A DNA stretch of 64,000 nucleotides from an uncultured bacterium (GCA_947361225.1 CANAIK010000003.1:1-64000), one strand, 5' to 3'. Positions 37,478 to 53,634 are shown, counted from the first letter of the stretch. A program made the numbers and translations. The notes: generated by a model from the letters alone, not told the origin.

Positions 37478-40400
37478 ATGGATTGTATAAAAAAACTGGG
37501 ACCTTTGGGAAATATTGAATTTGATAAACTTTTTATCGCTCAAATTTTGTCACATTGCGCTGATGCGATTATTCAGTTTTTGCTCGTTTTTATTCTGCTA
37601 AAACTTTCTAATACCCCGGGGAACTCAATTGCCACAATGTTTTTCTCTTTTTTATTACCCCAATTTTTATTGAGTCCTTTTTCAGGGATTCTATCGGATA
37701 AACTCCCAAGAAAATTAATTTTATCTACAAGCGCAGTTTTTCGGGGTCTTATTGTTGTTGGTTTAGTTTTTTTACTGCCAAAATTATCTGTTTTATCAAT
37801 TTATTTAACCGCTTTTACACTAGGAGTAGGAGCAGCGCTTTTTTATCCTTCTAAAATGGCAATTATAACAAATATTGTATCAAGCAAACAATTAAAGTTC
37901 GCTAATGCCCTAACGAGCTCCATTGGAGCAACCGCACTGCTATTTGGCGCACTGGGAGCGAATTATTTAATTAAATTTGGATTAAATAACGCTCTTATAA
38001 CAATTTGTTCAATGTATTTTTTATCAAGTTTTATTTCTTTGTTAATTAAACTTAGAATCCCTCAAAAAATTCAATTGAAAAATAAATGCAACGATGTAAA
38101 AATTGCCTTTAATTACCTAAAAAAACACAAAAAAGCGCTTTATCTTGTTTTATTGTCAACTGCTTTGCAGTTTATTGTTGCGGTTTTTTCAAACGGGCTC
38201 AATTCCTTGGTTGTGGATTATTATAAGCTTGATTTTTCGAACCTTACCTATCTTAGAACACTTTTAGGTGTCGGGATAATATTAGGGATGATTTTTACCA
38301 TTTATTTTTCTCGTTTTATGAAAATCCCCCATTTATTTGCAATGAGTTTTAGCGGTTTATGTTTAATCCTATTGAGCGCTCCTTTGTGTCATAATTTAAG
38401 CGTGGCTTGGGTTTGGCTTATTCCGATAGGAATTTTTGATGCAATTATTCTTGTATTATTGGATACAATTCTGCAAAAAGTCACCCCGGATAGAGTTCGA
38501 GGCAAGGTTTTCGGGTTGCAATTGACCCTATCGACCTTAAGTTTTTTAGTTGGGACAATAATTACGGCAAATATTACAAGTTATATTAATCCTTTAACAA
38601 TTTTTAAAATAATCGCTCTTTTTTCTTTTAGTTTAGCTTTATTGGTTCTGGTTTTCGATAAATCATTCAGGTATTTTTTATTAAAAGCAACTTTGGGTCA
38701 AATTTTCCTTATGCTGTTTAGATACAAGGTTGAAGGATTAGAGAATATTCCAAAAAAAGGAAAAATTATCCTTGCAGGCAATCACACAGGTCATCTTGAT
38801 CCTTTTATTATCCAAATGGCAACTCATCGTGAACTTTGGTTTATAACGGGTCCTGCCGCTTTTAAAACCCCTGTTATAAGACATTTTCTTAAATATTTTA
38901 ACGTTCTTCCGCTAAAATTTGGTCAAGGACTTGAGGCGCTTGACTCAGCCGTTAATAAACTAAACAAAGGAGAGGCGGTTATTATTTTCCCTGAAGGGAA
39001 GTTTAGTCCCGACGGGAATTTATGCAAATTTAATCGAGGGGTCGGAATAATTTCCAAAAAAGCACAAGCTCCGATTATTCCTTTTGCAATTAAAGGCGGG
39101 TTTGAAACCTGGGGGCAAAAAAGAAAGACTCCAAAACTTTTTAATACAATTGTAATCCAATTTGGTCAAGCGATTGAGGACTATTTAGAGGATGAGAAAG
39201 AAATTGCTAAAAACCTTCAAACAAAAGTTGGTTTTTTAAAAAAAGCGCTGGATAGAAGAGCTTTTTACAACATTAACCAAAAACTTCATAGCGATTTTTT
39301 AGAATTAATGCAAGAAAAAGGAGATATTTACGGACAAAATATTGCGTTAGTTAAAAAAGACGAAAAAATAAGTTATATTGAACTATCAAGAAGGGCAAAA
39401 GAATTTGCCAACTATTTAATTGAAACAATAAAAGTCGAAAGAGGACAAATTATTGCAATTCTAACTGAATCAAGAATCGAGTTTGCAGTTGCTTTGTTTG
39501 CCTCAATTCAAACAGGGGCAATTGTTGTACCCCTGGATAACAAACTTACGATTAGCGAACACGAAAATATTTTAAACGATTGCAACCCAAGGATTATTCT
39601 TTGTTCGAAAAAATTCTTAAACCACACAACCGAACTTAAAAACAACGTTAAGTCAATTGAACATTGTTTTGTTCTTGAGGAAATTGATAATTACAAGGGA
39701 AATATTGAAAAGGATTTGGGTAAAAAAAGATCATTGGATGAAACCGCCCTAATTGTCTATACTTCAGGAACAACAGGGAACCCCAAGGGGGTTATGATTA
39801 GTTTTGGCAATATTTATTCCCAACTAAGAGATTTTGAAGTTATGTTTAGGGTTTCCAACAAAAATACTCTTTTATCAATTCTTCCCTTAAACCATTTACT
39901 AGAGCTCAACTGCGGATTTTTTGGAATGTTGTATTGCGGAGCTAAGGTTGTTTATCTTGAATCATTAACCCCAAAAGAGCTCATTAAAACCTTAAAAAAA
40001 GAAAAAATTACTAATATGATTATCGTTCCTTTGGTTGCAAAAATGATTAAAAGCAGCATTGAAAAGGAAATTAGGAAAAAATCAAAAATAATTCAACAAC
40101 TATTCCTGCTTGAGTTTAAAGTTGCAAAAATTCTACCAAGAAAACTAAGAAAACTTTTGTTTAAACCAATTATTGATTCTTTAGGGGGTCATCTTGAATG
40201 TTTTATCTCAGGCGGAGCTCCCCTAGAAAACGAAACGGCAATTTTCTTTAATAGAATCGGAATTCCTGTTTTTCAAGGCTACGGCTTAACAGAAACCTCA
40301 CCAACCGTTTCAACCAATCGCTATGGAAAAGAAAAACTAGGAACAGTAGGGGCTGCACTTCCTTCGGTTAGTGTTAAAACAAACGAGTCGGGAGAAATTT

Positions 40401-40888
40401 TGGTAATTGGTCCTAATATTATGCAGGGATATTACAAAAACCCCGATTTAACAAAAGAAGTAATTGACGAACAAGGCTGGTTCCACACAGGAGATATTGG
40501 TGAAATCGACAAATATGGTTTTATTAAAATTACCGGAAGAATAAAGAATTTAATTGTATTGCAAGGCGGAAAAAAGATTTTCCCCGAGGAAGTTGAAGCA
40601 ATTCTTGATAAATCGAAGTTAATTAAGGAAGTTTGCGTTCTTCCCGTAACAAAAAATCAAAAAGAAGAGGTTGGAGCAGTTGTAATTCCAATAGACGAAC
40701 TTTTAAGTGACAATGAATTGGAAATTAAGCAAAAAATCGAACAAGAAATTAAAGAATTGTCGAAAAAGTACCTTGCGCCCTATAAAACCCCGACAATTAC
40801 AGTAATTTATCCAAATAAAGAATTCCCCAGGACTTCAACTAAGAAAATTAAAAGAAACGAGATTAAAAATTATCTTGATAACTTGTAA
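37478..40888 (+). CDS. MFS transporter-acyltransferase (PlsC)-AMP ligase triple fusion (LplT-Aas-like lysophospholipid recycling)
   Basis: N-term MFS; GNHTGHLDPF (HX4D) and FPEGKFSPDG; LIVYTSGTTGNPKGVM and GYGLTETSPTVS adenylation motifs. Confidence 0.92.
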   Translation: MDCIKKLGPLGNIEFDKLFIAQILSHCADAIIQFLLVFILLKLSNTPGNSIATMFFSFLLPQFLLSPFSGILSDKLPRKLILSTSAVFRGLIVVGLVFLLPKLSVLSIYLTAFTLGVGAALFYPSKMAIITNIVSSKQLKFANALTSSIGATALLFGALGANYLIKFGLNNALITICSMYFLSSFISLLIKLRIPQKIQLKNKCNDVKIAFNYLKKHKKALYLVLLSTALQFIVAVFSNGLNSLVVDYYKLDFSNLTYLRTLLGVGIILGMIFTIYFSRFMKIPHLFAMSFSGLCLILLSAPLCHNLSVAWVWLIPIGIFDAIILVLLDTILQKVTPDRVRGKVFGLQLTLSTLSFLVGTIITANITSYINPLTIFKIIALFSFSLALLVLVFDKSFRYFLLKATLGQIFLMLFRYKVEGLENIPKKGKIILAGNHTGHLDPFIIQMATHRELWFITGPAAFKTPVIRHFLKYFNVLPLKFGQGLEALDSAVNKLNKGEAVIIFPEGKFSPDGNLCKFNRGVGIISKKAQAPIIPFAIKGGFETWGQKRKTPKLFNTIVIQFGQAIEDYLEDEKEIAKNLQTKVGFLKKALDRRAFYNINQKLHSDFLELMQEKGDIYGQNIALVKKDEKISYIELSRRAKEFANYLIETIKVERGQIIAILTESRIEFAVALFASIQTGAIVVPLDNKLTISEHENILNDCNPRIILCSKKFLNHTTELKNNVKSIEHCFVLEEIDNYKGNIEKDLGKKRSLDETALIVYTSGTTGNPKGVMISFGNIYSQLRDFEVMFRVSNKNTLLSILPLNHLLELNCGFFGMLYCGAKVVYLESLTPKELIKTLKKEKITNMIIVPLVAKMIKSSIEKEIRKKSKIIQQLFLLEFKVAKILPRKLRKLLFKPIIDSLGGHLECFISGGAPLENETAIFFNRIGIPVFQGYGLTETSPTVSTNRYGKEKLGTVGAALPSVSVKTNESGEILVIGPNIMQGYYKNPDLTKEVIDEQGWFHTGDIGEIDKYGFIKITGRIKNLIVLQGGKKIFPEEVEAILDKSKLIKEVCVLPVTKNQKEEVGAVVIPIDELLSDNELEIKQKIEQEIKELSKKYLAPYKTPTITVIYPNKEFPRTSTKKIKRNEIKNYLDNL

Positions 40889-42363
40889 AGATTTTTTTTC
40901 AGTTTTTCATAATCGATTCTAGAGTTGTGTCTTTTATCCTTAGGGATTTTTGTAACAACCAACTTATCAAGTTCGAATTTTCTTTCAATTAAAGCATTGA
41001 CAAGGTCTTCTTTAGGCAGTTTTGATTCAAGTACAACCACAACCTTAGAATTAATTTTTAGAATCGTCCCGCAATCAACCCCGGGGATTTCCATAAGAGC
41101 GTGCTCAAGAGGAAAACCATAAAAAGTTTTATCTTTATATTGGAATCTGTTTTTTATTCGACCAACAAGATAAAGATTGCCTTCGTCGTCTAAAAACCCG
41201 CCGTCACCCGTTCTGTGGTAAATTTTTCCATTATAATTAATTTTTGCAAGTTTTTGCGCCTCGGGACAATTATAATATTCCTTAAGGACGTGAGAGCCGC
41301 TTACGCAAATTTCCCCAATTTCACCTGTTTCAAGAATTGAACTTTCAAAATCCTCAATTTCCTCGTTTGTTGGTTTAATAATCCTAACTTCGATTTCCTC
41401 AACCGGTTTTCCCACCAAAAGCCCTTTTTTTAGGTCTTTTTGATTGGTTATTAAAGAATTAACACTAATGGTTGAAATCGGCTCAGCCTCGGTTGATCCA
41501 TAAATAATTTGGATATCACAGTTAATAAAATTCTCCCTCAATTTTTTAGCCACTTTTGGAAAGACAGGGGATCCGCCCGTAAAAATTCTTTTAATTCCTG
41601 AAATTTTTTGATTCTTAATAAGATTCTCATAGAAAGCAACCGAACCAACCGAAGTTGTGACATTATTTTTTTTAATGTCTTTAATAATTTTTTTAGGGTT
41701 AAATTGAGACGGTTTTCTCGGGTTAAAATCAGGAATCACGGAGGTTGTTCCGCAAGCGAGGTTGTGGAGCACAAAAATCGGCAAAGAAACCAAATCAACG
41801 TCATTAATTTCAGGTTTTAAGTGTTTTTTTAGAATTCTATGTTGTTCCAATAAAAATTCGTGGGTTCTTTTGCTCGCCTTGGGCATTCCGACAGATCCTG
41901 TCGTAAAAGTTATTAAAGCAGTCGTATCAGGGGTTATGGTTGGAGTTTCATAGTTTGTTTTAGGTTTTTTAATAAATCCCGAAACAAAATTAAGCGGAAT
42001 TTTTCTTATTTCACTTGAAAAAAGCTTTAGAATATATGCCTTGGGACAACCCAAAAAAGCCTTGCAAGGAACGGTTGATAAAGCATCGTTAAGCCTTTTT
42101 TTATCTGCCCAGGCATCTAAAAATACGGCGGTTGCTCCAATATTAAAAATTGCAGCCAAAATTATATAAAGCTCAATTGACATTGGGGTAAAAATAAGGA
42201 TATTGTCCCCTTTGGTCAAACCTTTAGATAAAAAATATTGAGAATAATTAAGAACCTTTAATAAAAATTCTCGATAAGTAATTTTTTTATTCTTATACAC
42301 TAACGCTATTTTATTTGGATAATTTTTTGCGTTCTCAAAAAGAATTTCTATAATATTGTTCAT
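40870..42363 (-). CDS. AMP-dependent ligase, OleC-like
   Basis: ALITFTTGSVGMPKASKRTHEFLLEQH, LPIFVLHNLACGTTSVIPDF, IYGSTEAEPIS, YHRTGDGGFLDDEGNLYLVGR. Confidence 0.85.
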   Translation of the reverse strand: MNNIIEILFENAKNYPNKIALVYKNKKITYREFLLKVLNYSQYFLSKGLTKGDNILIFTPMSIELYIILAAIFNIGATAVFLDAWADKKRLNDALSTVPCKAFLGCPKAYILKLFSSEIRKIPLNFVSGFIKKPKTNYETPTITPDTTALITFTTGSVGMPKASKRTHEFLLEQHRILKKHLKPEINDVDLVSLPIFVLHNLACGTTSVIPDFNPRKPSQFNPKKIIKDIKKNNVTTSVGSVAFYENLIKNQKISGIKRIFTGGSPVFPKVAKKLRENFINCDIQIIYGSTEAEPISTISVNSLITNQKDLKKGLLVGKPVEEIEVRIIKPTNEEIEDFESSILETGEIGEICVSGSHVLKEYYNCPEAQKLAKINYNGKIYHRTGDGGFLDDEGNLYLVGRIKNRFQYKDKTFYGFPLEHALMEIPGVDCGTILKINSKVVVVLESKLPKEDLVNALIERKFELDKLVVTKIPKDKRHNSRIDYEKLKKNLYKLSR

Positions 42364-43304
42364 AATTCGACTCCTAAAAGTTCATATTGTTGATAAATTT
42401 CCCCGCCTTTAATAATATTTTTTGATACGTTGTTAATATGCATTAGTGCGTGGATTATTTGGTTATACCCCAAAAAATGCGCTTTTTTGTGAATATATTC
42501 AACCAAATAAGACCCCAATCCCCGATATTTAGAATCCTCAATTTGCGCTAGGGTTTTAATTACAAGAGTTTTTTTAGTTTTATTAAAAAAATCAGGATAA
42601 CAAAAAATAAACGCAATTGGATTAAGCTGTTCGTTTTTTGCAATTAAAACAAACTTGGGGTCTAAGAATTTTTTTATTGGTTCATACATTGTGTAGAATT
42701 CCTCAAATTCAATTGGCGAATAAAGGAAATTATTAACAAAACTACAGGATGTTATATCGAATATTTGTTTTATTTGAGAATCAAAGTTTTGAGGGTCGAA
42801 TTCATCGATTGTTATTTTTTTATCTTTAAAAATTTGCTCGAATTTATCCAGTCTTTTGTAATTTTTATCTAAATTTTTATATATTGTTGAACAATAGTTA
42901 GATATTACCTTAAAACCCGAATTTTTGAATAATTCCTGATAATAGTCCGCATTATCGACATCTAAAAAAAAGCAAGGGTTATTTGTGGTTTTTAATCGAT
43001 ATTTTTTATAGGTGGATCCTTCCATTGGACCGATTAAATAATCAAAACCTTGGTTTTTAGCGTATTTTTTTATTTCCTCAAATAAATAACTAGCTGCTTT
43101 TTTATCATTAACAGATTTAAAAAAACCAATTTGTCCGATTTTTTTATAGTTTTTATAATGCAAGTTTTCGTTATAAATTAGTCCTGCGCAGGATAATAAT
43201 TGATTATCTTTTTTTATTGTAAATAATTTTTCGCTAATCCCGATTCCCCCCTCGTTTAATTGAGAAAAAGCCAAAAAATCTTCTATTTTATTGGATAAGC
43301 GCAT
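42360..43304 (-). CDS. GNAT-like acyltransferase
   Basis: GQIGFFKSVNDKKAASYLFEEIKKYAKNQGFDYLIGPMEGSTY; KYRGLGSYLVEYIHKKAHFLGY. Confidence 0.75.
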   Translation of the reverse strand: MRLSNKIEDFLAFSQLNEGGIGISEKLFTIKKDNQLLSCAGLIYNENLHYKNYKKIGQIGFFKSVNDKKAASYLFEEIKKYAKNQGFDYLIGPMEGSTYKKYRLKTTNNPCFFLDVDNADYYQELFKNSGFKVISNYCSTIYKNLDKNYKRLDKFEQIFKDKKITIDEFDPQNFDSQIKQIFDITSCSFVNNFLYSPIEFEEFYTMYEPIKKFLDPKFVLIAKNEQLNPIAFIFCYPDFFNKTKKTLVIKTLAQIEDSKYRGLGSYLVEYIHKKAHFLGYNQIIHALMHINNVSKNIIKGGEIYQQYELLGVEL

Positions 43305-44412
43305 AACCGACCCCCAAAGCGATTATTGAAACAATTGAAGTTAGGATTAAACCTTTGTTTAAATCATTGTTAAAAAGTTTTAATCGAATTATAATTCCTA
43401 TACAAACTATTGAACCTAAAAAAGGAAAAATTACAAGATTTGGAATAAAATCTCTCAAAAAAGCACAAATTACAGGGACTAAAAGAATATAATAAATCGG
43501 TTTAACCCGATATTTGTCAGCAACTTCACAATTATAATTAAGAATCAAATTTGTTTTTTGACACAAAAAAGATAAAGAAAAAATTACAATTGCGAAAAAA
43601 TTTCCCATTAAAGCCCAGATAACGTAGTTTATAAGCCCTAAAAAAAGAACGCCCGAAAACCCGATTTTTTTATAAGGGCGCATAATTATTAAATATCCTA
43701 TTAAAAATAAAATCAAAACCCCGATTTGAACTGAAAGCTCAAAAGTATTCGGATTTGTGTTTCTTGATAGTATAAAAAGAACAGATAAAGGAATAAAAAG
43801 ATTATCAGCCCCTTTTAAACTAACTCCTTCAAAAACACTAACAATTATTGAAATTAAAACCCCGATTAAAACACAATCTAATCTATCGAATCTTGTTGTT
43901 AATAGAAGGATTAAATGTACAACCAAAAAAGAACTCACAAAAAAAGCAATTGATCCTTCAAGGGTTTTTTTCGTCCCCACTTCAACGATATATTCACTTT
44001 TTCCGTATCTTTTCCCGATTAAAGCAGCAATTGCATCACAAAGCGCCAGAATTAGAATAGAAATTACATAAAACCAGGGTAAGCCCAAAAGATTTGCATA
44101 TAAAAAACAAATAAAAATTGCAATAGGATGATAAAAAGCCCCGTACGACGCCCTTTCAACCCCGTGGATTGATTGTAAAAATCCAAATTTTTTAGATATT
44201 ATCATAATTAAAGTAAACCCAAAGGCTAATAATAAGACAGATAGCGGGTTTTCAAAAATAAAAGGGAAAAAAATCGTGACAAACGCACCCAGAAAATGGG
44301 CGAATTTTCTTGTAATTTCAACCGCAACACCTTTTTTACGGAGAATTTCTCCAATTGCAAAAATTAACAAGAATATTGCACTTATTATTACAATCCAAAC
44401 CAAATCACACAT
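43288..44412 (-). CDS. phytol/dolichol kinase-like (CTP-dependent kinase family) membrane protein
   Basis: EITRKFAHFLGAFVTIFFPF; CDAIAALIGKRYGKSEYIVEVGTKKTLEGSIAFF; EGVSLKGADNLFIPL. Confidence 0.82.
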   Translation of the reverse strand: MCDLVWIVIISAIFLLIFAIGEILRKKGVAVEITRKFAHFLGAFVTIFFPFIFENPLSVLLLAFGFTLIMIISKKFGFLQSIHGVERASYGAFYHPIAIFICFLYANLLGLPWFYVISILILALCDAIAALIGKRYGKSEYIVEVGTKKTLEGSIAFFVSSFLVVHLILLLTTRFDRLDCVLIGVLISIIVSVFEGVSLKGADNLFIPLSVLFILSRNTNPNTFELSVQIGVLILFLIGYLIIMRPYKKIGFSGVLFLGLINYVIWALMGNFFAIVIFSLSFLCQKTNLILNYNCEVADKYRVKPIYYILLVPVICAFLRDFIPNLVIFPFLGSIVCIGIIIRLKLFNNDLNKGLILTSIVSIIALGVGYALIQ

Positions 44413-45508
44413 TCTTTACACCCTCAACTATAAATGCCTTGTAAAAAAACGCCCTGTCTTTTGAATGGAGTTTTTTTGATAAATCTTGTTCGAAATAAAA
44501 ATTCTGAGGCAGGATTTTGGACATTTGTCTATCAACCAGCATATTCCAATAACAAAATCTTGCATTTTTATTGCAAATTCCTAAAAAATCCTTAGAAACT
44601 TTTATAAAAAGCTCTAAATCCATATATTCAAAGATATCAGATAAATTAAAACAATCAAATTTTTCTTTTATTTGATAAGGGATTTGATTAATTAACCCCC
44701 TTTCAATCCTTAAAGAATCAATATTTTGTTTAATTGTATCAAAATTTTCTTTTTTAGCGTAATGTGGCAGGGAAAAATCAAAGTTATTTAAAAGAATATA
44801 GTTTAAAAAAGGATTGTTCCAAGCGCAAACCTCTCCTAGAGCGTAATCCGCTCTTTTTTTAATATTATCAGAAATTTGTTTTGTACTAACGTATTTAAAG
44901 AATTCTTTATCCCTTCCAAGTCTTCCTAAAACAAATCGAGAGAAAAAAACCTTAAATAAAAGTTTAAATTTCCAATTATTAAAAGTTTTGTAATAAAAAA
45001 TTTTCTGTGCGTTAATTGATTTAGGCAGGAAAAATTCACTCAAGTTTTTTTGATTGTGAATAAGAGGAAGAATTTTTTGAGCAAAAATTTGGAAATATTG
45101 TTCGAATTTTCCTTTGTGAATTATTCCACTTAGTACAATTTTTAGGTTATTATCAAGATAATATTGACTTTGAGACGACAATTTTTCTTTTATTGACCTA
45201 TAAACTTCCATTCTGTTGTTTTGGGGTTTAAAACCCAAAAAACCCAAAAAAGTTTCATAATCCAAATTCTTAATCGCCTGCTTTTTAAGCTCACTGCAAG
45301 CGATTTGAGGAATACTCAAATCAACCGCCAAAACTAAAGCAGGATTTTTAGTTAACAAACTAAGAGAATTATCAAGCCCCGAGGCTATTGATAAACATTT
45401 GGAATCCTCTTTAATATTAAGCGCTTCTAATAGTAGAATCGGGTCTTCCCAGCAGTTTGAATAGCGGATTTTATCGAACTTTGCCCTTTGTTGAATTTCT
45501 TTATCCAT
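44405..45508 (-). CDS. BtaA/DUF3419 family (S-adenosylmethionine 3-amino-3-carboxypropyl transferase-like)
   Basis: KIRYSNCWEDPILLLEALNIKEDSKCLSIASGLDNSLSLL; IVLSGIIHKGKFEQYFQIFAQKILPLIH; DIFEYMDLE. Confidence 0.85.
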   Translation of the reverse strand: MDKEIQQRAKFDKIRYSNCWEDPILLLEALNIKEDSKCLSIASGLDNSLSLLTKNPALVLAVDLSIPQIACSELKKQAIKNLDYETFLGFLGFKPQNNRMEVYRSIKEKLSSQSQYYLDNNLKIVLSGIIHKGKFEQYFQIFAQKILPLIHNQKNLSEFFLPKSINAQKIFYYKTFNNWKFKLLFKVFFSRFVLGRLGRDKEFFKYVSTKQISDNIKKRADYALGEVCAWNNPFLNYILLNNFDFSLPHYAKKENFDTIKQNIDSLRIERGLINQIPYQIKEKFDCFNLSDIFEYMDLELFIKVSKDFLGICNKNARFCYWNMLVDRQMSKILPQNFYFEQDLSKKLHSKDRAFFYKAFIVEGVKNV

Positions 45509-47894
45509 TGATTATTTTTATTGTACCTTTTTTTCCATCCATTTCAATTTCCATATCGTCCTTAAGAACCGAAAAAAGATTATTAACCCCGACAATTGCA
45601 GGAATTCCCATTTCACGAGCAACAATTGCCCCGTGGGATAGAATACTTCCTCTTTCAATTAAAATCCCCTTGCTAATTGCAAATAAAGGAACCCAGCCGG
45701 GATCCGTTCTTTTTGCTACAAGAATTTTCCCTTCTAAGTCATTTGTGTCATAAATTGAGTTAACGATTCGAACTTTTGCTCGAACAACCCCGGCGCAGCA
45801 GCCGATTCCTAATAAAACGCAATCTTTATCTATTGTTGCGGTTTCGTTTTTTTCGTTTCCTATTGAGCAATAAACAATTCCTTTGGTTTTTATTCTATCC
45901 TTTAGGTCTTCTTTTCTAAATTCATCAAATTGTTTTTTTCGATTCTCAATAATTCCCCTTAAATCAACATCAACAGAGGTTCCTAAGACATATGAAAAAA
46001 TTTCATCTTTCGTTAAGTAAAAAATATCTCTTTTGTTGTTAATAATTTTTTCTTGTTCAAAAATAACGCCGAATCGAAGAAAAATTTCCCTTACAAGCCC
46101 GAAAAGCCTTGTTCTTTCAAATCTTAAGTTTTCCCTGTTTCGAACTAAAAATCGAGTGCGATTAAGAACATATGAAAAAATCGGATTCTTAATTTTTTTA
46201 TCAATTTGAGGTTCCGGATTTTTATCTTTATTTAAATCTATAATTCCTTGTTTAACGTATGTTTTAATTAAACAAATTAAAAGTCTTGAATCCTGTTTAT
46301 ATGTAATTGTTTCAAGTTTTAGTTCTTCAATACAACGATTGCCGAATTTTTTTATAAACCCTTCGATTTCATCGTTAATCGGATAATCCTTAAGTCTTTT
46401 TTGAATAACATCCTCGACTTCAGCTAAAAACAGCTCCTTAAGTTCATTATTAAGACAAATTTTATTCGAAATTTCTTTAATTCTAATAATCGGTTCAACC
46501 GATATTATTCCTTTTTGTCCAATTAACAAATCATTCTGCAAGGTTCCTTTGGGGTCAATTTTTATAAGCATTTTTTTTAGAATTCCATAAAAAATCATTG
46601 CATAAAAATCATTAATTAAAGGAGCCTGCCAATTTTTTAATAATTTTTTTTCAAGCTCGAAATAAATTTCAATTAATTCCTGTGCGCCTTTTTTCTCTAA
46701 AGCTCCCCCTTCATAAGGGGCTAGGGTTGAGTTTATTGTTATATAAAATTGTTTAATATTTTTTTTCAAATACAGAAGATTAAAAACTAAACTTTTAATT
46801 AAGTTAAACAGTCTTAAAAATTTATTTTTTGAACTTTTTTCAACACTAACATCCTCATTAAGTGTTTCTTTTACACCCATCATTGATTCCATAAACCTTG
46901 CGTTAAATTCATATCCGGGCATTAATTTTAACAGTCGATACCAATTAAGAAGATTATAATAAACCCTTCCTTTAATATATCCAAGCATTTGGAAAATATT
47001 TTTATTTTTTTCGATTAACTCCTCCTCAACTCCCATTATTAACAAAAACTGCTTATAAACTTCACTATAAACATCAACTATAAAAGAAAAAGTCAAAGGA
47101 AGACTAATCCCGGGATAACTTTCAACGATATTAGAATTATCGAAAATATTCTCCCTTAAATTATCCTTAAAAGTCGTTATCGGACGGGCTTGGAGGATAT
47201 ATAAGACATTATTTTGATACGCCCATTCAATATCTTGAGGACAACAAAAAATTTGTTCTATTTTTCTCGTTGCTTGTTCAATTTCTTTAATTTGATGCTC
47301 CTTTAGGGTTTGGGCGTTTGGATTCTCGTTTTTTTCTTTGGTTAAACCTTGATTTTGTTCTTTATTGAGAACTAATTTGCAGGGTTTATTAACAATTGTT
47401 TTTTCAATTATTCCTTCTTTAATTTCATATGTATCAGCGCTCAATTCCCCTGAAACCAAGCCTTCTCCGACTCCAAAAACACTTGAAATTACGCAGGTTT
47501 CACTGTTATCTATTGGATTAATCGAAAAACTTACTCCTGAAACCTCCGAATCGACCATTTCCTGGACAATTGCTCCAATTTTTATATCAAAATCCTTTAA
47601 TCCGTTTTTTTCTTTGTAGAACTTGACTCTATCCAAATTAATCGAGTTAAAAACATCTTCAATTCTTTTTTTAACATCGTTTTTCCTAACATAAAGATAA
47701 GTTTCAAATAACCCCGCAAAAGAAGAACTTGCGCTATCTTCAACGTTTGTTGAAGATCGAATTGCATAAAGTTTATCTTCCTCAAGTTCGAGTTTTTGAT
47801 CCAAAGAATCGACAAAAAACCACTTAGGAACATTAAAACCCTGTTTTTGCAGAATATCTAAATTAATTGCTTTATTACCGATTAAATTGTTCAT
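45501..47894 (-). CDS. PEP-utilising phosphotransferase (PEP synthase/rifampin phosphotransferase-like)
   Basis: ATP-grasp GNKAINLDILQKQGFNVPKWF, YAIRSSTNVEDSASSSFAGLFETYL; VESYPGISLPLTFSF; swivelling-His GSILSHGAIVAREMGIPAIVGV; start ATG 47894 overlaps the upstream stop (TAATG). Confidence 0.85.
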   Translation of the reverse strand: MNNLIGNKAINLDILQKQGFNVPKWFFVDSLDQKLELEEDKLYAIRSSTNVEDSASSSFAGLFETYLYVRKNDVKKRIEDVFNSINLDRVKFYKEKNGLKDFDIKIGAIVQEMVDSEVSGVSFSINPIDNSETCVISSVFGVGEGLVSGELSADTYEIKEGIIEKTIVNKPCKLVLNKEQNQGLTKEKNENPNAQTLKEHQIKEIEQATRKIEQIFCCPQDIEWAYQNNVLYILQARPITTFKDNLRENIFDNSNIVESYPGISLPLTFSFIVDVYSEVYKQFLLIMGVEEELIEKNKNIFQMLGYIKGRVYYNLLNWYRLLKLMPGYEFNARFMESMMGVKETLNEDVSVEKSSKNKFLRLFNLIKSLVFNLLYLKKNIKQFYITINSTLAPYEGGALEKKGAQELIEIYFELEKKLLKNWQAPLINDFYAMIFYGILKKMLIKIDPKGTLQNDLLIGQKGIISVEPIIRIKEISNKICLNNELKELFLAEVEDVIQKRLKDYPINDEIEGFIKKFGNRCIEELKLETITYKQDSRLLICLIKTYVKQGIIDLNKDKNPEPQIDKKIKNPIFSYVLNRTRFLVRNRENLRFERTRLFGLVREIFLRFGVIFEQEKIINNKRDIFYLTKDEIFSYVLGTSVDVDLRGIIENRKKQFDEFRKEDLKDRIKTKGIVYCSIGNEKNETATIDKDCVLLGIGCCAGVVRAKVRIVNSIYDTNDLEGKILVAKRTDPGWVPLFAISKGILIERGSILSHGAIVAREMGIPAIVGVNNLFSVLKDDMEIEMDGKKGTIKIING

Positions 47895-48829
47895 TAACTT
47901 AAACCTCCTAAAAGATGGATTATCATTGGAATTCCACCCAAAGATAAATACATTCCGATTGTCCAAATTCCGGCTGCAGTTTCAATTTTTTGAGCGTCTT
48001 TTTGTTTTTTTGTTATCAAAAACGCAACAGCAGGATAAATACACAACAAATAAAAACAGGTTAAATAAATAACCATTAATTTTGAGAATCCTGCAAAAAG
48101 ACAGGCAAAATTGGAACAAATAAAAGTTATAAATAGAATTATTATCCAAATAATTGTTGCGTTTTTTTCTCCCCAAAGCGAAGAATAAGTTACGACTCCA
48201 AATTCCTCGGCAGAATTTGCCCTTATTTTTCTTCCAACTTCAATTACAACGCCATTAAGAAAAGTTATTATTAAAAAAATTACCAAACCCCTTGGGATGT
48301 TCTCATTATCCATCCAATCGAGTCCTGTTGTGTAGAAATCAATTATTGGCATAACCAACATATGAGATAGAAGATAAAAAATTGGATGTTTTTTTAACCA
48401 GTTGCCGACAAAAAACTCTCGTGCCATAATTAGCATAAAACTTATAACCAAAATCCAGATTGGAAACATTTTTGGAATAAAAAACAAATTAAGAATCAAC
48501 TGGACTAGAATTATTATAAAAATTAGAATCTTAAGTTCGAAAAAAGAAACCAAACCCCTTGGAACCGCCCGATAAGGACGATATTTTGCATCATCCGCCT
48601 TGTCTTTAAATTCATCGAATATCCGAAGTAAGAAAAAATATCCAAAAGAAGTTGTTGCGCCAATTAAAAAAGTGAAGTACGAAAAATCGTAGTTTCCTCT
48701 TAAGAATTTAGAATATGAAACAGCAGAAAAAGTGAATGTTAAAACCATTAGCCCATAAGCAAAAACAGGAAATCTTTCTTTTTGATAAATCCACAATCTT
48801 CTAAAAATATTTAAGTTTTTTTCTTCCAT
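47894..48829 (-). CDS. UbiA-family prenyltransferase-like membrane protein
   Basis: LLRIFDEFKDKADDAKYRPYRAVPRGLVSFFEL (Asp-rich motif) and polytopic pattern; ATG at 48829 preferred over the track start. Confidence 0.82.
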   Translation of the reverse strand: MEEKNLNIFRRLWIYQKERFPVFAYGLMVLTFTFSAVSYSKFLRGNYDFSYFTFLIGATTSFGYFFLLRIFDEFKDKADDAKYRPYRAVPRGLVSFFELKILIFIIILVQLILNLFFIPKMFPIWILVISFMLIMAREFFVGNWLKKHPIFYLLSHMLVMPIIDFYTTGLDWMDNENIPRGLVIFLIITFLNGVVIEVGRKIRANSAEEFGVVTYSSLWGEKNATIIWIIILFITFICSNFACLFAGFSKLMVIYLTCFYLLCIYPAVAFLITKKQKDAQKIETAAGIWTIGMYLSLGGIPMIIHLLGGLS

Positions 48830-48910
48830 TGTTAAGTATTCTACAAAAACCATAGTCCAAACGCATCAACCAAAAAGATGTTTGAATTTTTTTGCAAGAT
48901 AAAAATAGTA

Positions 48911-48939
48911 TTGACATTTTTTTTAAAAAAAATTACAAT
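48911..48939 (+). promoter_or_regulatory. sigma70-type promoter TTGACA-17 nt-TACAAT
   Basis: TTGACA 48911..48916, TACAAT 48934..48939, ATG 6 nt later at 48946. Confidence 0.7.
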
Positions 48940-48945
48940 TATCCT

Positions 48946-50007
48946 ATGGATAATGAATTAAGAATTACTTTTTACGGCGATTTCACATTTGGAGAAAATT
49001 ATCAAGCAAGATATGATTATTTTGAAAAAATAAACTCCTTAAGACAAAACGGTTATGATTATCTTTTCCAAAAAGTTGAACATTTTTTTAAAAATTCAGA
49101 TTACAACATTGTAAATCTTGAATCCCCTATAACAAATTCTCTAAAATCGAGTTTAGAATACAAAAAAGCTTGTATTCACTGGTGTGATTTAGAAGTTGCG
49201 CCAAAAATTATGAAAAAATACAACATCCACGCAGCTTCGCTGGGAAATAATCACGGATATGATTACGGAGAATTAGGATTAAAACAAAGCTTAGAGGCTT
49301 TAGACAAAGTTCAAATTAAACATTTTGGCGCAGCAATGAACGAAAAAAGCGCAAAAGAACCCTTGGTTGAACATTTTGATTACAATGGAAAACCTTTAAA
49401 TTTATATGTTTTTGGCGGATACAAATACAGAGAAGACTACAAAACCGAATTTAATTTTTATGCGCAAGGCGAAACAAAAGGCGGAGTAAATCTTCTAATG
49501 CCGGAAAAGGTTTGCGACGATATTAAAAAAATCAAAAATGAAGACAGCAATGCCTTTATCGTTATGTTCCCGCATTATGGTTTTGATTTACAAAAAACCG
49601 TGCAAATGCAAAAAGAAATGTCAAGAGCTTTTATCGACTCAGGGGCAGATATCGTAATAGGACACGGTCCTCATATGATAAATCAAATTGAATACTATAA
49701 TAACAAATCTATTATATACAGTCTTGGAAACTTTATTTTCAATGCCGATTTTAGAGGAAGAATGACACCTTACAATCTTGTAGCATCTCTTGTTTTTAAA
49801 GACGATATTCAAAAACCAGCGATTGAACTTTATCCTGTGCATATGAATACTAATTCCAAAACTCCGCAGACAAGACCAATCGAAAAACAAGAAATTGACG
49901 AGGTAATAAAACTTCTTTGCGAAGAAGATAAAGACGATATTATTAAAAATTCGATTTCAATAGACGAAAACAATCCCTTAGGGATATGTTTAACTTTAAA
50001 TACTTAA
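48946..50007 (+). CDS. CapA/PgsA family metallophosphatase-like protein
   Basis: ITFYGDFTFGENY, NLESPITNS, ASLGNNHGYDYG, FPHYGFD, DIVIGHGPHMINQIEYYNNKSIIYSLGNFIF; start at 48946 supported by the promoter position. Confidence 0.88.
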   Translation: MDNELRITFYGDFTFGENYQARYDYFEKINSLRQNGYDYLFQKVEHFFKNSDYNIVNLESPITNSLKSSLEYKKACIHWCDLEVAPKIMKKYNIHAASLGNNHGYDYGELGLKQSLEALDKVQIKHFGAAMNEKSAKEPLVEHFDYNGKPLNLYVFGGYKYREDYKTEFNFYAQGETKGGVNLLMPEKVCDDIKKIKNEDSNAFIVMFPHYGFDLQKTVQMQKEMSRAFIDSGADIVIGHGPHMINQIEYYNNKSIIYSLGNFIFNADFRGRMTPYNLVASLVFKDDIQKPAIELYPVHMNTNSKTPQTRPIEKQEIDEVIKLLCEEDKDDIIKNSISIDENNPLGICLTLNT

Positions 50008-50025
50008 ATTAAATGGAAAAAATTT

Positions 50026-51459
50026 ATGATAATTAAAAAAGCCATAGAATTAACCAAAGGGTTGAGTCTAATTTGCACAAATAAGGAAAAGGATTATAAA
50101 TTTATAAGCTCAATCGAGCAAGGAAAACTCACATCTTGTGATTATATTTACATTCCATTGCTTGAGAGCAATGAAAATGTTTTTGATGAACTTGAAAAAC
50201 ACCTTAAAAATCCTAATTGCAAAGGTTTTTATTTTAAAAAAGATATCCTTAAAAATCCAAATCAACAAATATACTATCACAATATTATAAAAAAATATTC
50301 ATCGAAAATTGAAGTTGTTGTATTGGTTCGAAATCCATTTAACTCAGGGTATGAAATAGGTCAAGAAAATGTAAAAACGTTCAATCCAAAAATCGTATCA
50401 ATCGCAGGAACCGATGAAAAAAATGTCGTTTTAAATCTTGTTTCATACGTCTTAAGCTCAACAGGAACAACAATAAGCTCCCGCAAAAACGCTACTGCTT
50501 GGCAAAAATTCATTGAACCGATGCTTCTTATCGATAAAGACACAAAATATTGCGTTATTGAACTTTCAGCCGAGAAAAAAGATATTTATAAATGCGCAAG
50601 AGTGTTAGAGAATAATACAATAATTTTTACCAAAACTTCTCTAAATTTCTTGAACAGATATAACGATAAAGAAGAATTTATCAATGAAATAGCATATTGT
50701 ACCGAAATGACGGACAATATTGAAAATATTTTTACATTCGAAGAAAATGATTTGGTTAACAACTCAATTAAAACAAATAAAATCAATATTATTGAAGAGA
50801 ATGAAATTAAAACCGAAGAAAAAATATCAAATAAAAAGAAATGTTTAAGAATATCCTATAAAGATATTTCGATTACAACAACCGATTATTCTTATTATAC
50901 GCCAAGATGCTTTGTTATTTCTTATTTAGCGCTTAAAAGTCTGGGGTTGAATGAAAATGATATTCAAAAGAAATTTTCAGATTATAAAGACACATCCGCA
51001 ATTTATGAAAAAACAAAACTCTCCAACAATAACCATATTGTTATGAGCACACAAGATCATACTTTTTATTCGATAAAAAACGCAATAAAACAATTCTCAT
51101 TAGAATATAGCGAATTTAAAAAAATCATAATATTATCAAAAATAGACAATCTTGGAAATTATTCCGATGATATACATAAAGAAATATTAAAAGATTTAGC
51201 CAAGGAAAAATTCAATACGGTTGTTCTAATTAATTTAAATGAATTTGAAAGTAATTATAAAATTTATGATAAAAAAGCTTATGTAAAAAGGTTTGTGGTA
51301 AATAAAAACACAAATTACGAAAGCTTTTCAATAAACTTGAATTTATTTTTAGAAGGGCAAATTAACGACAACACGGCTGTTTTAGTTTGCATACCTTCAA
51401 ATATGAATTTAAACTCTTTATTTGCATTAACGGAGTCATATAAATGCGCTACAACTTAA
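50026..51459 (+). CDS. degenerate Mur ligase-like protein lacking an intact P-loop
   Basis: KIVSIAGTDEKNVVLNLVSYVL aligns with KIITVTGSVGKTSTTEMIYAIF of the next gene. Confidence 0.7.
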   Translation: MIIKKAIELTKGLSLICTNKEKDYKFISSIEQGKLTSCDYIYIPLLESNENVFDELEKHLKNPNCKGFYFKKDILKNPNQQIYYHNIIKKYSSKIEVVVLVRNPFNSGYEIGQENVKTFNPKIVSIAGTDEKNVVLNLVSYVLSSTGTTISSRKNATAWQKFIEPMLLIDKDTKYCVIELSAEKKDIYKCARVLENNTIIFTKTSLNFLNRYNDKEEFINEIAYCTEMTDNIENIFTFEENDLVNNSIKTNKINIIEENEIKTEEKISNKKKCLRISYKDISITTTDYSYYTPRCFVISYLALKSLGLNENDIQKKFSDYKDTSAIYEKTKLSNNNHIVMSTQDHTFYSIKNAIKQFSLEYSEFKKIIILSKIDNLGNYSDDIHKEILKDLAKEKFNTVVLINLNEFESNYKIYDKKAYVKRFVVNKNTNYESFSINLNLFLEGQINDNTAVLVCIPSNMNLNSLFALTESYKCATT

Positions 51460-52922
51460 AAGAAATTCTACAGAATACAAGTTCTTATATTTTCTATAAA
51501 AATTCAGACGATATTTTCGAAAAAGAATATGAATCAACTCTGCTTATAGACAAAACAAGAGAACTTCCTCAAAAAGGCATTAATACAATCTTTACGCCCT
51601 TTAGAATAATGATTAACGACCATTATTCAGATTCTTTTTTCCTGATTAAAAAAGCTCTTGATAATGGAGTAAAGGGATTTTTCTTCGATGAAATAAGGCT
51701 CAAAGAAGAAAAATATTATAATTTTTTACTTGAAACAATAGAACAATACAAAGATAAAATCGATTTTATTATAATGGTTCCCGACACAATTCAAGCCATT
51801 TTCGATCTTGCAAGATACACTATTAAAAACAAATTTACAAAAGATGTAAAAATAATTACCGTAACCGGTTCTGTAGGCAAAACTTCTACCACGGAAATGA
51901 TTTATGCTATTTTTAAAGAAAAATATAAAATTTACCGTGGGGAACCAATGGTTAATTTGAGATTTAGAATTAATCAAAAAATTATTGAAGCAGATAACGA
52001 TGTTGATTTTCTTTTATTTGAATGCAGCGGAGCAAACAGAGGTTATCCAAAAATTTTCTCCGAACTTTTAACGCCCGATGCTTGTGTTGTAACCAAAGTA
52101 GGAACCGAGAATCTCGGAATATTTAAAAGTTTAGACAATATTGCAAACCAGAAATGCGAATTAATGACTTGTTTGCACGAAAATAATTTTGCTGTTTTAA
52201 ATGACAGCCCCGAAATAAGAAGAGCGAGTGAAAAATATAATTGCAAAAAGATTTACACAAAAGAAGGCGATTATGAACTCATTAAAAGCGATCAACAAGG
52301 CTCCAAATTTATTTACAAAAACAAAGAATATGAAATTCCGGTTGTGGGCGTGCATCAAATAAACAACGCAATGAAGGCAATCGAAGTTGCAAATGGTTTT
52401 GATGTTCCTTACGAAACCATTGTAAGCGGATTGAAAAAATTCCAAACGGTTGGAAGCAGATGGAATACAGACAATTTTAACGGAACCCTTTTTGTATCGG
52501 ATTGTCCGAATAATCCAAGCTATGAAACAATGTTATCAAGTATTACAACATTTGTTAATCTTTACAAAAATTTTGAAAACAAACGTATTGCAATAAGCGG
52601 AATAAGATCCTTAGGAAACCACGAGAAAAAAGTGCATCTTGATTTGGCGAAATTTATTGCGCAACAACCTTTAAATGAGGTTATTTGTCTTGAGTCTGAA
52701 ACAAAAATAATATATGAATACTTAAAAGAAAATGCTCCGCAAATGCAAGTCAAATACTACGACAAACCAAATTCCCTGGATAAAGATGAGCCTTTTGTGC
52801 AATATATTATAAATTCTCTTGGCGAGAATCAAGCATTTTTAATGAAAGGACAGGGAATAGATCCGAAAATAAGATATGAGGATGTTTTTACAACCTTAAA
52901 ACAAGTCTTCAATAAAAAATAA
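51444..52922 (+). CDS. Mur ligase family (MurF/CapB-like) amide ligase
   Basis: KIITVTGSVGKTSTTEMIY; ECSGANRGYPKIFSELLTPDACVVTKVGTENLGIFKS; VVGVHQINNAMKAIEVA. Confidence 0.88.
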   Translation: MRYNLKEILQNTSSYIFYKNSDDIFEKEYESTLLIDKTRELPQKGINTIFTPFRIMINDHYSDSFFLIKKALDNGVKGFFFDEIRLKEEKYYNFLLETIEQYKDKIDFIIMVPDTIQAIFDLARYTIKNKFTKDVKIITVTGSVGKTSTTEMIYAIFKEKYKIYRGEPMVNLRFRINQKIIEADNDVDFLLFECSGANRGYPKIFSELLTPDACVVTKVGTENLGIFKSLDNIANQKCELMTCLHENNFAVLNDSPEIRRASEKYNCKKIYTKEGDYELIKSDQQGSKFIYKNKEYEIPVVGVHQINNAMKAIEVANGFDVPYETIVSGLKKFQTVGSRWNTDNFNGTLFVSDCPNNPSYETMLSSITTFVNLYKNFENKRIAISGIRSLGNHEKKVHLDLAKFIAQQPLNEVICLESETKIIYEYLKENAPQMQVKYYDKPNSLDKDEPFVQYIINSLGENQAFLMKGQGIDPKIRYEDVFTTLKQVFNKK

Positions 52923-52962: not shown

Positions 52963-53634
52963 TTAGTTTTTAATTAAAATTTGATAGGATATTAATTTAC
53001 AACAACAAAAATTAATTTTTTTAACCTCAAACCCGCAATTATTAAACTCTTTTACAAGTTCATTGGGGGAGGGGAATTGGTTTTTAGATTTTATCAAGTA
53101 TTTATAAGCTTTTTCGTTTCCAGAAAACAGTTTTGTTAATAACAATATTGCAAAATCATAAATTGTACTTAAAAAATTTTTGCATCCAAAATCAATATGC
53201 AAAAAATATCCGCCTTTTTTTAACAGTCTAAAAACCTCTTTTAGCGCTTTTTTCCTATCTTCAATATTCCTTAAACCAAACCCCATTAAAATATAATCAA
53301 AATAAGAATCCTCAAAATCCGTATTCGTTGCGTCTTGTAAAGAAAAAACCGTATTGGGAGCTTTTGTTTTTGCTATATTAATCATTTTTTCACTAAAATC
53401 TACCCCAAAACTCTCAATTGAAGGTTCCATATCTTTTGCAATTCTACTTAAATCCCCGCTTCCCGAGCACAAATCAAGCACTTTTGAATTAGGTTTTATT
53501 GTTAAAGCCCTTATTGCAGCTTTTTTTATATAAATATGGGTATAAAAAGAAATTATATTGTTCCAAAAATCGTATTGGGGAGCAATTTTATCAAACATCT
53601 TTTTTATTTTTCTGGGCGTTTTATCAAAATTCAC
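52963..53634 (-). CDS. ubiE: demethylmenaquinone/ubiquinone methyltransferase
   Basis: MFDKIAPQYDFWNNIISF; VLDLCSGSGDL; LMGFGLRNIEDRKKALKEVFRLLKKGG; GTG start. Confidence 0.9.
   Translation of the reverse strand: MNFDKTPRKIKKMFDKIAPQYDFWNNIISFYTHIYIKKAAIRALTIKPNSKVLDLCSGSGDLSRIAKDMEPSIESFGVDFSEKMINIAKTKAPNTVFSLQDATNTDFEDSYFDYILMGFGLRNIEDRKKALKEVFRLLKKGGYFLHIDFGCKNFLSTIYDFAILLLTKLFSGNEKAYKYLIKSKNQFPSPNELVKEFNNCGFEVKKINFCCCKLISYQILIKN

Follow-up and report, generated by a model that had tools for sequence, protein, structure and literature searches.

The window, a stretch of 64,000 nucleotides from an uncultured bacterium (GCA_947361225.1, CANAIK010000003.1:1-64000), carries on its minus strand an operon of six translationally coupled genes, designated here A to F, which is found, often intact, across about nine bacterial phyla. 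The operon is probably one horizontally mobile biosynthetic unit that makes a membrane-associated lipid with a 3-amino-3-carboxypropyl (homoserine-type) group, and the lipid nature of the product, taken by itself, is likely. A more specific proposal, held only tentatively, is that the product belongs to an undescribed lipid class widespread across phyla, with a backbone alcohol supplied by a repurposed HMG-CoA reductase (HMGR) and a head group made of an N-acylated aminocarboxypropyl unit derived from S-adenosylmethionine (SAM). The enzyme families are already known, while the pathway itself has, as far as can be told, not been described.

The genes and their convergent neighbour are as follows, with positions counted from the first letter of the window:

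47894..48829, minus strand: gene A, UbiA-family membrane transferase of about 311 amino acids (Pfam UbiA PF01040, E 2e-9)
45501..47895, minus strand: gene B, ATP-grasp and swivelling-His phosphotransferase/ligase, rifampin-phosphotransferase/PigC-like (PPDK_N 6e-53, PEP-utilizers 2e-23)
44405..45508, minus strand: gene C, BtaA/DUF3419, predicted SAM 3-amino-3-carboxypropyl transferase (PF11899, E 1.2e-57)
43288..44412, minus strand: gene D, CTP-dependent polyprenol/phytol/diacylglycerol-kinase-like membrane protein (CTP_transf_1 PF01148, E 8e-6)
42360..43304, minus strand: gene E, tandem-GNAT acyltransferase (Acetyltransf_1, E 2.9e-6)
40870..42363, minus strand: gene F, ANL-superfamily acyl-adenylating enzyme, PRK09274/OleC-like (AMP-binding, E 5.6e-50)
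37478..40888, plus strand: convergent neighbour, MFS + PlsC-type acyltransferase + acyl ligase, LplT-Aas-like (Pfam)

Conservation and probable mobility of the operon

An earlier, sequence-only reading of this DNA had listed the six genes in this order, place and family, with an overlap at every junction. All of the open reading frames are present, the families were matched by Pfam and NCBIfam, and the junctions were confirmed directly from the sequence. The stop codon of A and the start codon of B share TAATG, with AGGAGG ahead of the junction; B and C overlap by 8 nt (ATGGATAA), C and D by 8 nt (ATGTGTGA), D and E by 17 nt (ATGCGCTTATCCAATAA), and E and F by 4 nt (ATGA). The start of gene A at 48829 agrees with its aligned relatives, whose proteins begin with MEEKD. 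Promoter and terminator scans gave results near chance and were not used. The genome that contains the window (1.9 Mb, 98 contigs) appears to be that of a gut-type Gastranaerophilales/Melainabacteria bacterium.

The best relatives of C came from one scan covering 85,462 species genomes and stand at 80 loci, all of which were searched with profiles of A to F. Flanks of 8 kb or more on either side of the C relative are available at 32 loci; among these, A, B and F are each present in 31, E in 30 and D in 28. These figures are conditional on a C subclade retrieved with two peptide patterns, and the loci are not independent: in the tree of C, 25 sequences are from Bacteroidota and 11 are gut sisters. 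The co-occurrence of the six genes is beyond that of a chance neighbourhood. The earlier claim that they constitute one functional unit is upheld by these counts, and the families, far from rarely occurring together, are each found in 28–31 of the 32 loci.

All six genes occur together in genomes labelled in their records as Melainabacteria, Endomicrobia, Bacteroidota, Chlorobiota, Lentisphaerota, Kiritimatiellota, Planctomycetota, Desulfobacterota-type and Pseudomonadota. The order is ABCDEF in Gastranaerophilales and Bacteroidota and CDEF-AB in Lentisphaerota, Kiritimatiellota and Desulfobacterales, and in some planctomycetes the operon is split and inverted. Such shuffling among lineages points to functional linkage more than to vertically inherited synteny. 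A plasmid of Roseinatronobacter sp. S2 bears exactly A-B-C-D-E-F in that order, all six matching the profiles, which together with the occurrence across phyla in shuffled order argues for a mobile and coherent pathway. The phyla are intermixed in the tree of C, with Elusimicrobiota beside Gastranaerophilales and Lentisphaerota at several places, a pattern consistent with horizontal transfer, short of proof. Gene C is present in only 5 of 58 relatives, the window's own genome counted, and the operon is therefore accessory in the order Gastranaerophilales.

Such wide conservation, over about nine phyla and with a plasmid copy, implies a product common to many bacteria that has yet to be assigned. 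The hosts include the cultivable Dyadobacter and Sphingobacterium, so the product can be sought directly. If the proposal is true, it would add a BtaA-family pathway without a betaine lipid, a role for HMGR that is not part of mevalonate metabolism and a UbiA-fold enzyme whose active site has been rebuilt.

Predicted functions and the proposed pathway

Gene C scores 196 bits against PF11899, for which the cut-off is 28. In betaine-lipid synthesis BtaA transfers the aminocarboxypropyl group from SAM (PMC10491745). C is about 23% identical to a BtaA of Chondrinema that has an adjoining methyltransferase, and the two are far apart in the tree. No BtaB-type methyltransferase is present in the operon, which would leave the amine available for acylation, as in ornithine-type lipids; the earlier view that ordinary betaine lipid (DGTS) is not the obvious product holds. 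The sole match in the genome (29%) to a methyltransferase adjoining a BtaA elsewhere is a UbiE-like gene at 52963–53634. Its presence does not track the operon, for it occurs in operon-free relatives and is lacking in the operon-bearing genome G007, and it was therefore discarded as a candidate for a hidden BtaB.

The AF2 model of A (pLDDT 92.8) has a UbiA fold, and that of E (pLDDT 92.3) a tandem GNAT fold, so that the folds are intact in both proteins for which structure prediction, proposed earlier as a check, was run. The nearest fold to A is that of the archaeal digeranylgeranylglyceryl phosphate (DGGGP) synthase 6m31 (TM 0.61/0.68), which is also its nearest solved relative by sequence. 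Relative to the canonical Asp-rich motifs of UbiA enzymes, the alignment shows motif 1 of A kept as a variant without the usual Asn (R77xxD80ExK83D84xxxD88), while the second motif is replaced by E205xxR208K209...E216, invariant in 26 sequences. With the second Asp motif lost, ordinary prenyl-diphosphate transfer is not assured. The novel lipid of the sequence-only reading, with a homoserine-like headgroup and/or a prenyl chain, is accordingly retained in part: a homoserine-type, lipid-like product is probable and the prenyl chain is doubtful.

The family motifs of D are complete in the alignment (ExxRKxxH, DxxAAxxG, K(S/T)xEGS and DNxxxP), and D is predicted to resemble CTP-dependent lipid-alcohol kinases acting on dolichol, phytol or diacylglycerol. 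The protein is about 220 residues long in Bacteroidota and has a C-terminal membrane extension elsewhere. B contains the ATP-grasp and swivelling domains, with the catalytic His in SHGAIVARE, and no phosphoenolpyruvate (PEP)/pyruvate barrel was detected in it by domain search. Its nearest solved structures are 5hv2, 5fbs and 5hv1 (E about 1e-125), labelled PEP synthase by their depositors; 5hv2 and 5fbs we take to be rifampin phosphotransferase (Rph). NCBIfam matches of B are PRK06241.2-2, PigC, RedH and Rph, the scores for PigC (260 vs 1300 bits) and Rph (256 vs 999 bits) being under the curated equivalog cut-offs. The nearest folds to E are tandem GNATs, including mycothiol synthase MshD and glucosamine N-acetyltransferase. 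F is best matched by PRK09274 (354 bits), followed by the OleC models at 210 bits against a curated cut-off of 900, and its relatives have a C-terminal RHNSK motif. The family motifs of B and D are intact, as is half of the motif set of A.

Most clusters outside the gut lineages carry a class I-type HMGR as a seventh gene, located beside C or A in 40 loci and present in 21 of the 32 well-flanked ones. It is absent from the window's genome and its gut relatives, and from 11 of the 18 cluster genomes tested, including the complete Lentisphaerae WC36 chromosome. A more distant member of Gastranaerophilales, G056, has the codirectional arrangement Aas-HMGR-A-B-C-D-E-F. Nine HMGR-bearing hosts were tested. 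In eight of them HMG-CoA synthase and mevalonate-diphosphate decarboxylase are missing (sub-cut-off matches only) and Dxr is present; the exception is a member of Pontiellaceae, which has mevalonate genes. Sphingobacterium, Rhabdobacter and Dyadobacter are represented by isolate genomes, and the missing genes are therefore not explained by incompleteness. HMGR was on these grounds rejected as a supplier of mevalonate in most hosts. The Dxr gene of the window's own genome (G000:C15:14590-15711) has one in-frame TAA, either an assembly error or a broken gene.

Compared with the human enzyme, the cluster HMGR keeps the catalytic Glu, Lys, Asp and His, whereas nearly all members have the replacements S684->E and K735->S (human numbering) in the HMG site. 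At two loci, L038 (7239–9995) and L089 (4612–7362), HMGR carries a fused APH/EcKL-type kinase domain, and both genomes lack gene D; four more genomes in the same search are without D, and none of these four showed the fusion. The pairing of fusion with loss of D is therefore no more than suggestive. The orphan state of HMGR, its altered HMG pocket and the kinase fusion where D is absent suggest that HMGR makes an alcohol, which is then phosphorylated.

In the proposed pathway, the lipid alcohol would arise in most lineages through reduction of an acyl thioester by the HMGR homologue, and be obtained otherwise in the gut lineages, and would first be phosphorylated by the CTP-dependent kinase D. 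The UbiA-fold enzyme A would then draw on the phosphorylated lipid in making a lipid-acceptor bond, C would add the 3-amino-3-carboxypropyl group from SAM, E would N-acylate the free amine, using an acyl group that F has activated, and B would phosphorylate a hydroxyl or drive a condensation with ATP. The order of the second to fifth steps is a guess, and it is doubtful that the detailed order as given is right. The lipid nature of the product is indicated by the BtaA/DUF3419 family of C, the closeness of A to an archaeal lipid synthase, the kinase motifs of D and the PlsC/Aas, CDP-alcohol transferase and CdsA-like genes that are neighbours at some loci.

Weighing of the alternatives

Several observations weigh against a lipid pathway of this kind. 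The operon has no conserved acyl-carrier protein that could be found, several host genomes are without D and have no obvious substitute for it, and the sequence does not reveal the acceptors of A, B and F. The lack of HMGR in the window's genome and in the complete Lentisphaerae operon genome leaves the alcohol supply there without explanation. In the window, C has SGLDN where relatives have SAGDN, a G->L change in the SAM loop, and F has RHNSR where relatives have RHNSK, a K->R change at the likely adenylation lysine. The BtaA family need not act on lipids either, since the DUF3419 gene of the Rhizobium plasmid pMK-2 (L101) is in a different, natural-product-like cluster. Its neighbours there are ketoacyl-ACP synthase III, an oxidoreductase, an MBL hydrolase and a CoF synthetase, possibly another uncharacterised aminocarboxypropyl pathway; DUF3419 matches are also found on Shinella and Sinorhizobium plasmids. 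Finally, no description of the gene set identifies its product, none of the pathway having been found in an open-access library of 5.39 million papers, in agreement with the earlier reading, to which no characterised pathway of this combination was known; subscription papers or preprints could still hold one.

It is unlikely that the product is instead a soluble or secreted small molecule with an aminocarboxypropyl group, such as a metallophore, a signal or an antibiotic-like compound, which the membrane enzymes only anchor or decorate. The resemblance of B to the condensing enzymes PigC and RedH and of F to nonribosomal peptide synthetase adenylation domains and OleC, as well as one planctomycete locus with adjoining P450, MFS and methyltransferase genes, are in line with it, and other aminocarboxypropyl transferases make nicotianamine-type compounds (PMC10491745). 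However, two of the six enzymes are from families that act on long lipids, and the neighbouring genes include no recurrent carrier protein, receptor or dedicated exporter.

A rather improbable reading, compatible with any of the others, is that the window's copy has been altered or is in decay and has ceased to make the product of the pathway. Its proteins have 23 deviations at columns at least 90% conserved, vs 0–2 in most sister lineages, and these include the changes in the SAM loop of C and at the probable catalytic lysine of F. The branch of the window's C in the tree is 0.47, vs at most 0.12 for the gut sister sequences, and among the sampled genomes of the genus only one other has the operon. 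Against this, none of the six frames is interrupted across the 8 kb, their overlaps are intact, and A and D show no deviations at conserved columns. Accelerated evolution confined to the six genes was rejected, the adjoining Aas-like gene being as divergent as the operon genes, which makes a separate lineage of the whole block as likely as decay. The earlier reading had not noted this atypical state of the window's copy, nor HMGR as a seventh gene, the plasmid copy, the tandem GNAT fold of E or the nearness of B to rifampin phosphotransferase.

It is quite improbable that the operon makes an isoprenoid lipid, with HMGR feeding mevalonate and the UbiA enzyme attaching prenyl chains to an acceptor resembling glycerol, in the manner of archaeal ether lipids. 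The relationship of A to DGGGP synthase, the presence of HMGR in most clusters and the likeness of D to prenol kinases would fit, but the absence of mevalonate genes in eight of nine HMGR hosts, the altered HMG pocket and the loss of the second Asp motif in A do not, and the clusters share no further recurrent isoprenoid gene. That the operon is an ordinary one for betaine lipid (DGTS/DGHS) to which accessory genes have been added, as the PF11899 family of C might suggest, is very improbable given the lack of a BtaB partner in the window and in most relatives, the distance from the Chondrinema pair and five constant partners foreign to DGTS synthesis as known.

Neighbouring genes and comparison with known systems

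The 3' ends of gene F and of the convergent Aas-like gene overlap by 19 nt. The latter adjoins the operon in most gut relatives, being at the same place in L007, L008, L011, L012, L016, L017 and L019–L021, and in L009 it overlaps HMGR codirectionally. It was considered as an operon member and judged separable, as it exists without the operon in genome G016. Divergent from the operon, at 48892–52922 on the plus strand, are a PGA_cap-type protein and two Mur-ligase-like proteins, which may form a cassette for polyglutamate or amide ligation; a search of 29 other genomes gave no close match to the PGA_cap gene. One gut relative has a HipA-type kinase gene just upstream of its operon (L007, 5016–6122). 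In a planctomycete variant (L060, 9375–20316), which lacks HMGR and D, C is immediately preceded by a class I methyltransferase, and E is followed by MFS and P450 genes.

The proposed product shares with the ornithine-lipid pathways the idea of an N-acylated amino-acid lipid. None of OlsBA, OlsF or OlsH/OlsI is present in the operon, however, and the amino-acid part would here come from SAM; the planctomycete GH3-dependent ornithine-lipid pathway was also checked and has a different gene set. C belongs to the same family as the BtaA of DGTS synthesis and is expected to perform the same SAM aminocarboxypropyl transfer, but the operon has no BtaB, C forms a separate clade and five extra partner genes are constant.

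A is similar in sequence and fold to the archaeal DGGGP synthase, from which it differs by ExxRK in place of the second Asp motif. No gene of the geranylgeranylglyceryl phosphate synthase or glycerol-1-phosphate dehydrogenase kind was seen as a recurrent operon neighbour, the genomes not having been searched for them. B shares with Rph and PigC, which are PEP-synthase-like, the ATP-grasp and swivelling-His domains and the catalytic His, while its scores are far under those that NCBIfam requires for Rph, PigC and PEP synthase, and its middle substrate domain is unassigned. F lies in the same part of the ANL superfamily as the OleC beta-lactone synthetase and the PRK09274 AMP ligases, but is under the curated cut-offs, and the operon lacks the partners OleA, OleB and OleD. 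The cluster HMGR has the fold family and the four catalytic residues of class I HMG-CoA reductase, from which it is distinguished by its orphan state in hosts with the methylerythritol phosphate pathway and by the two replacements in the HMG site.

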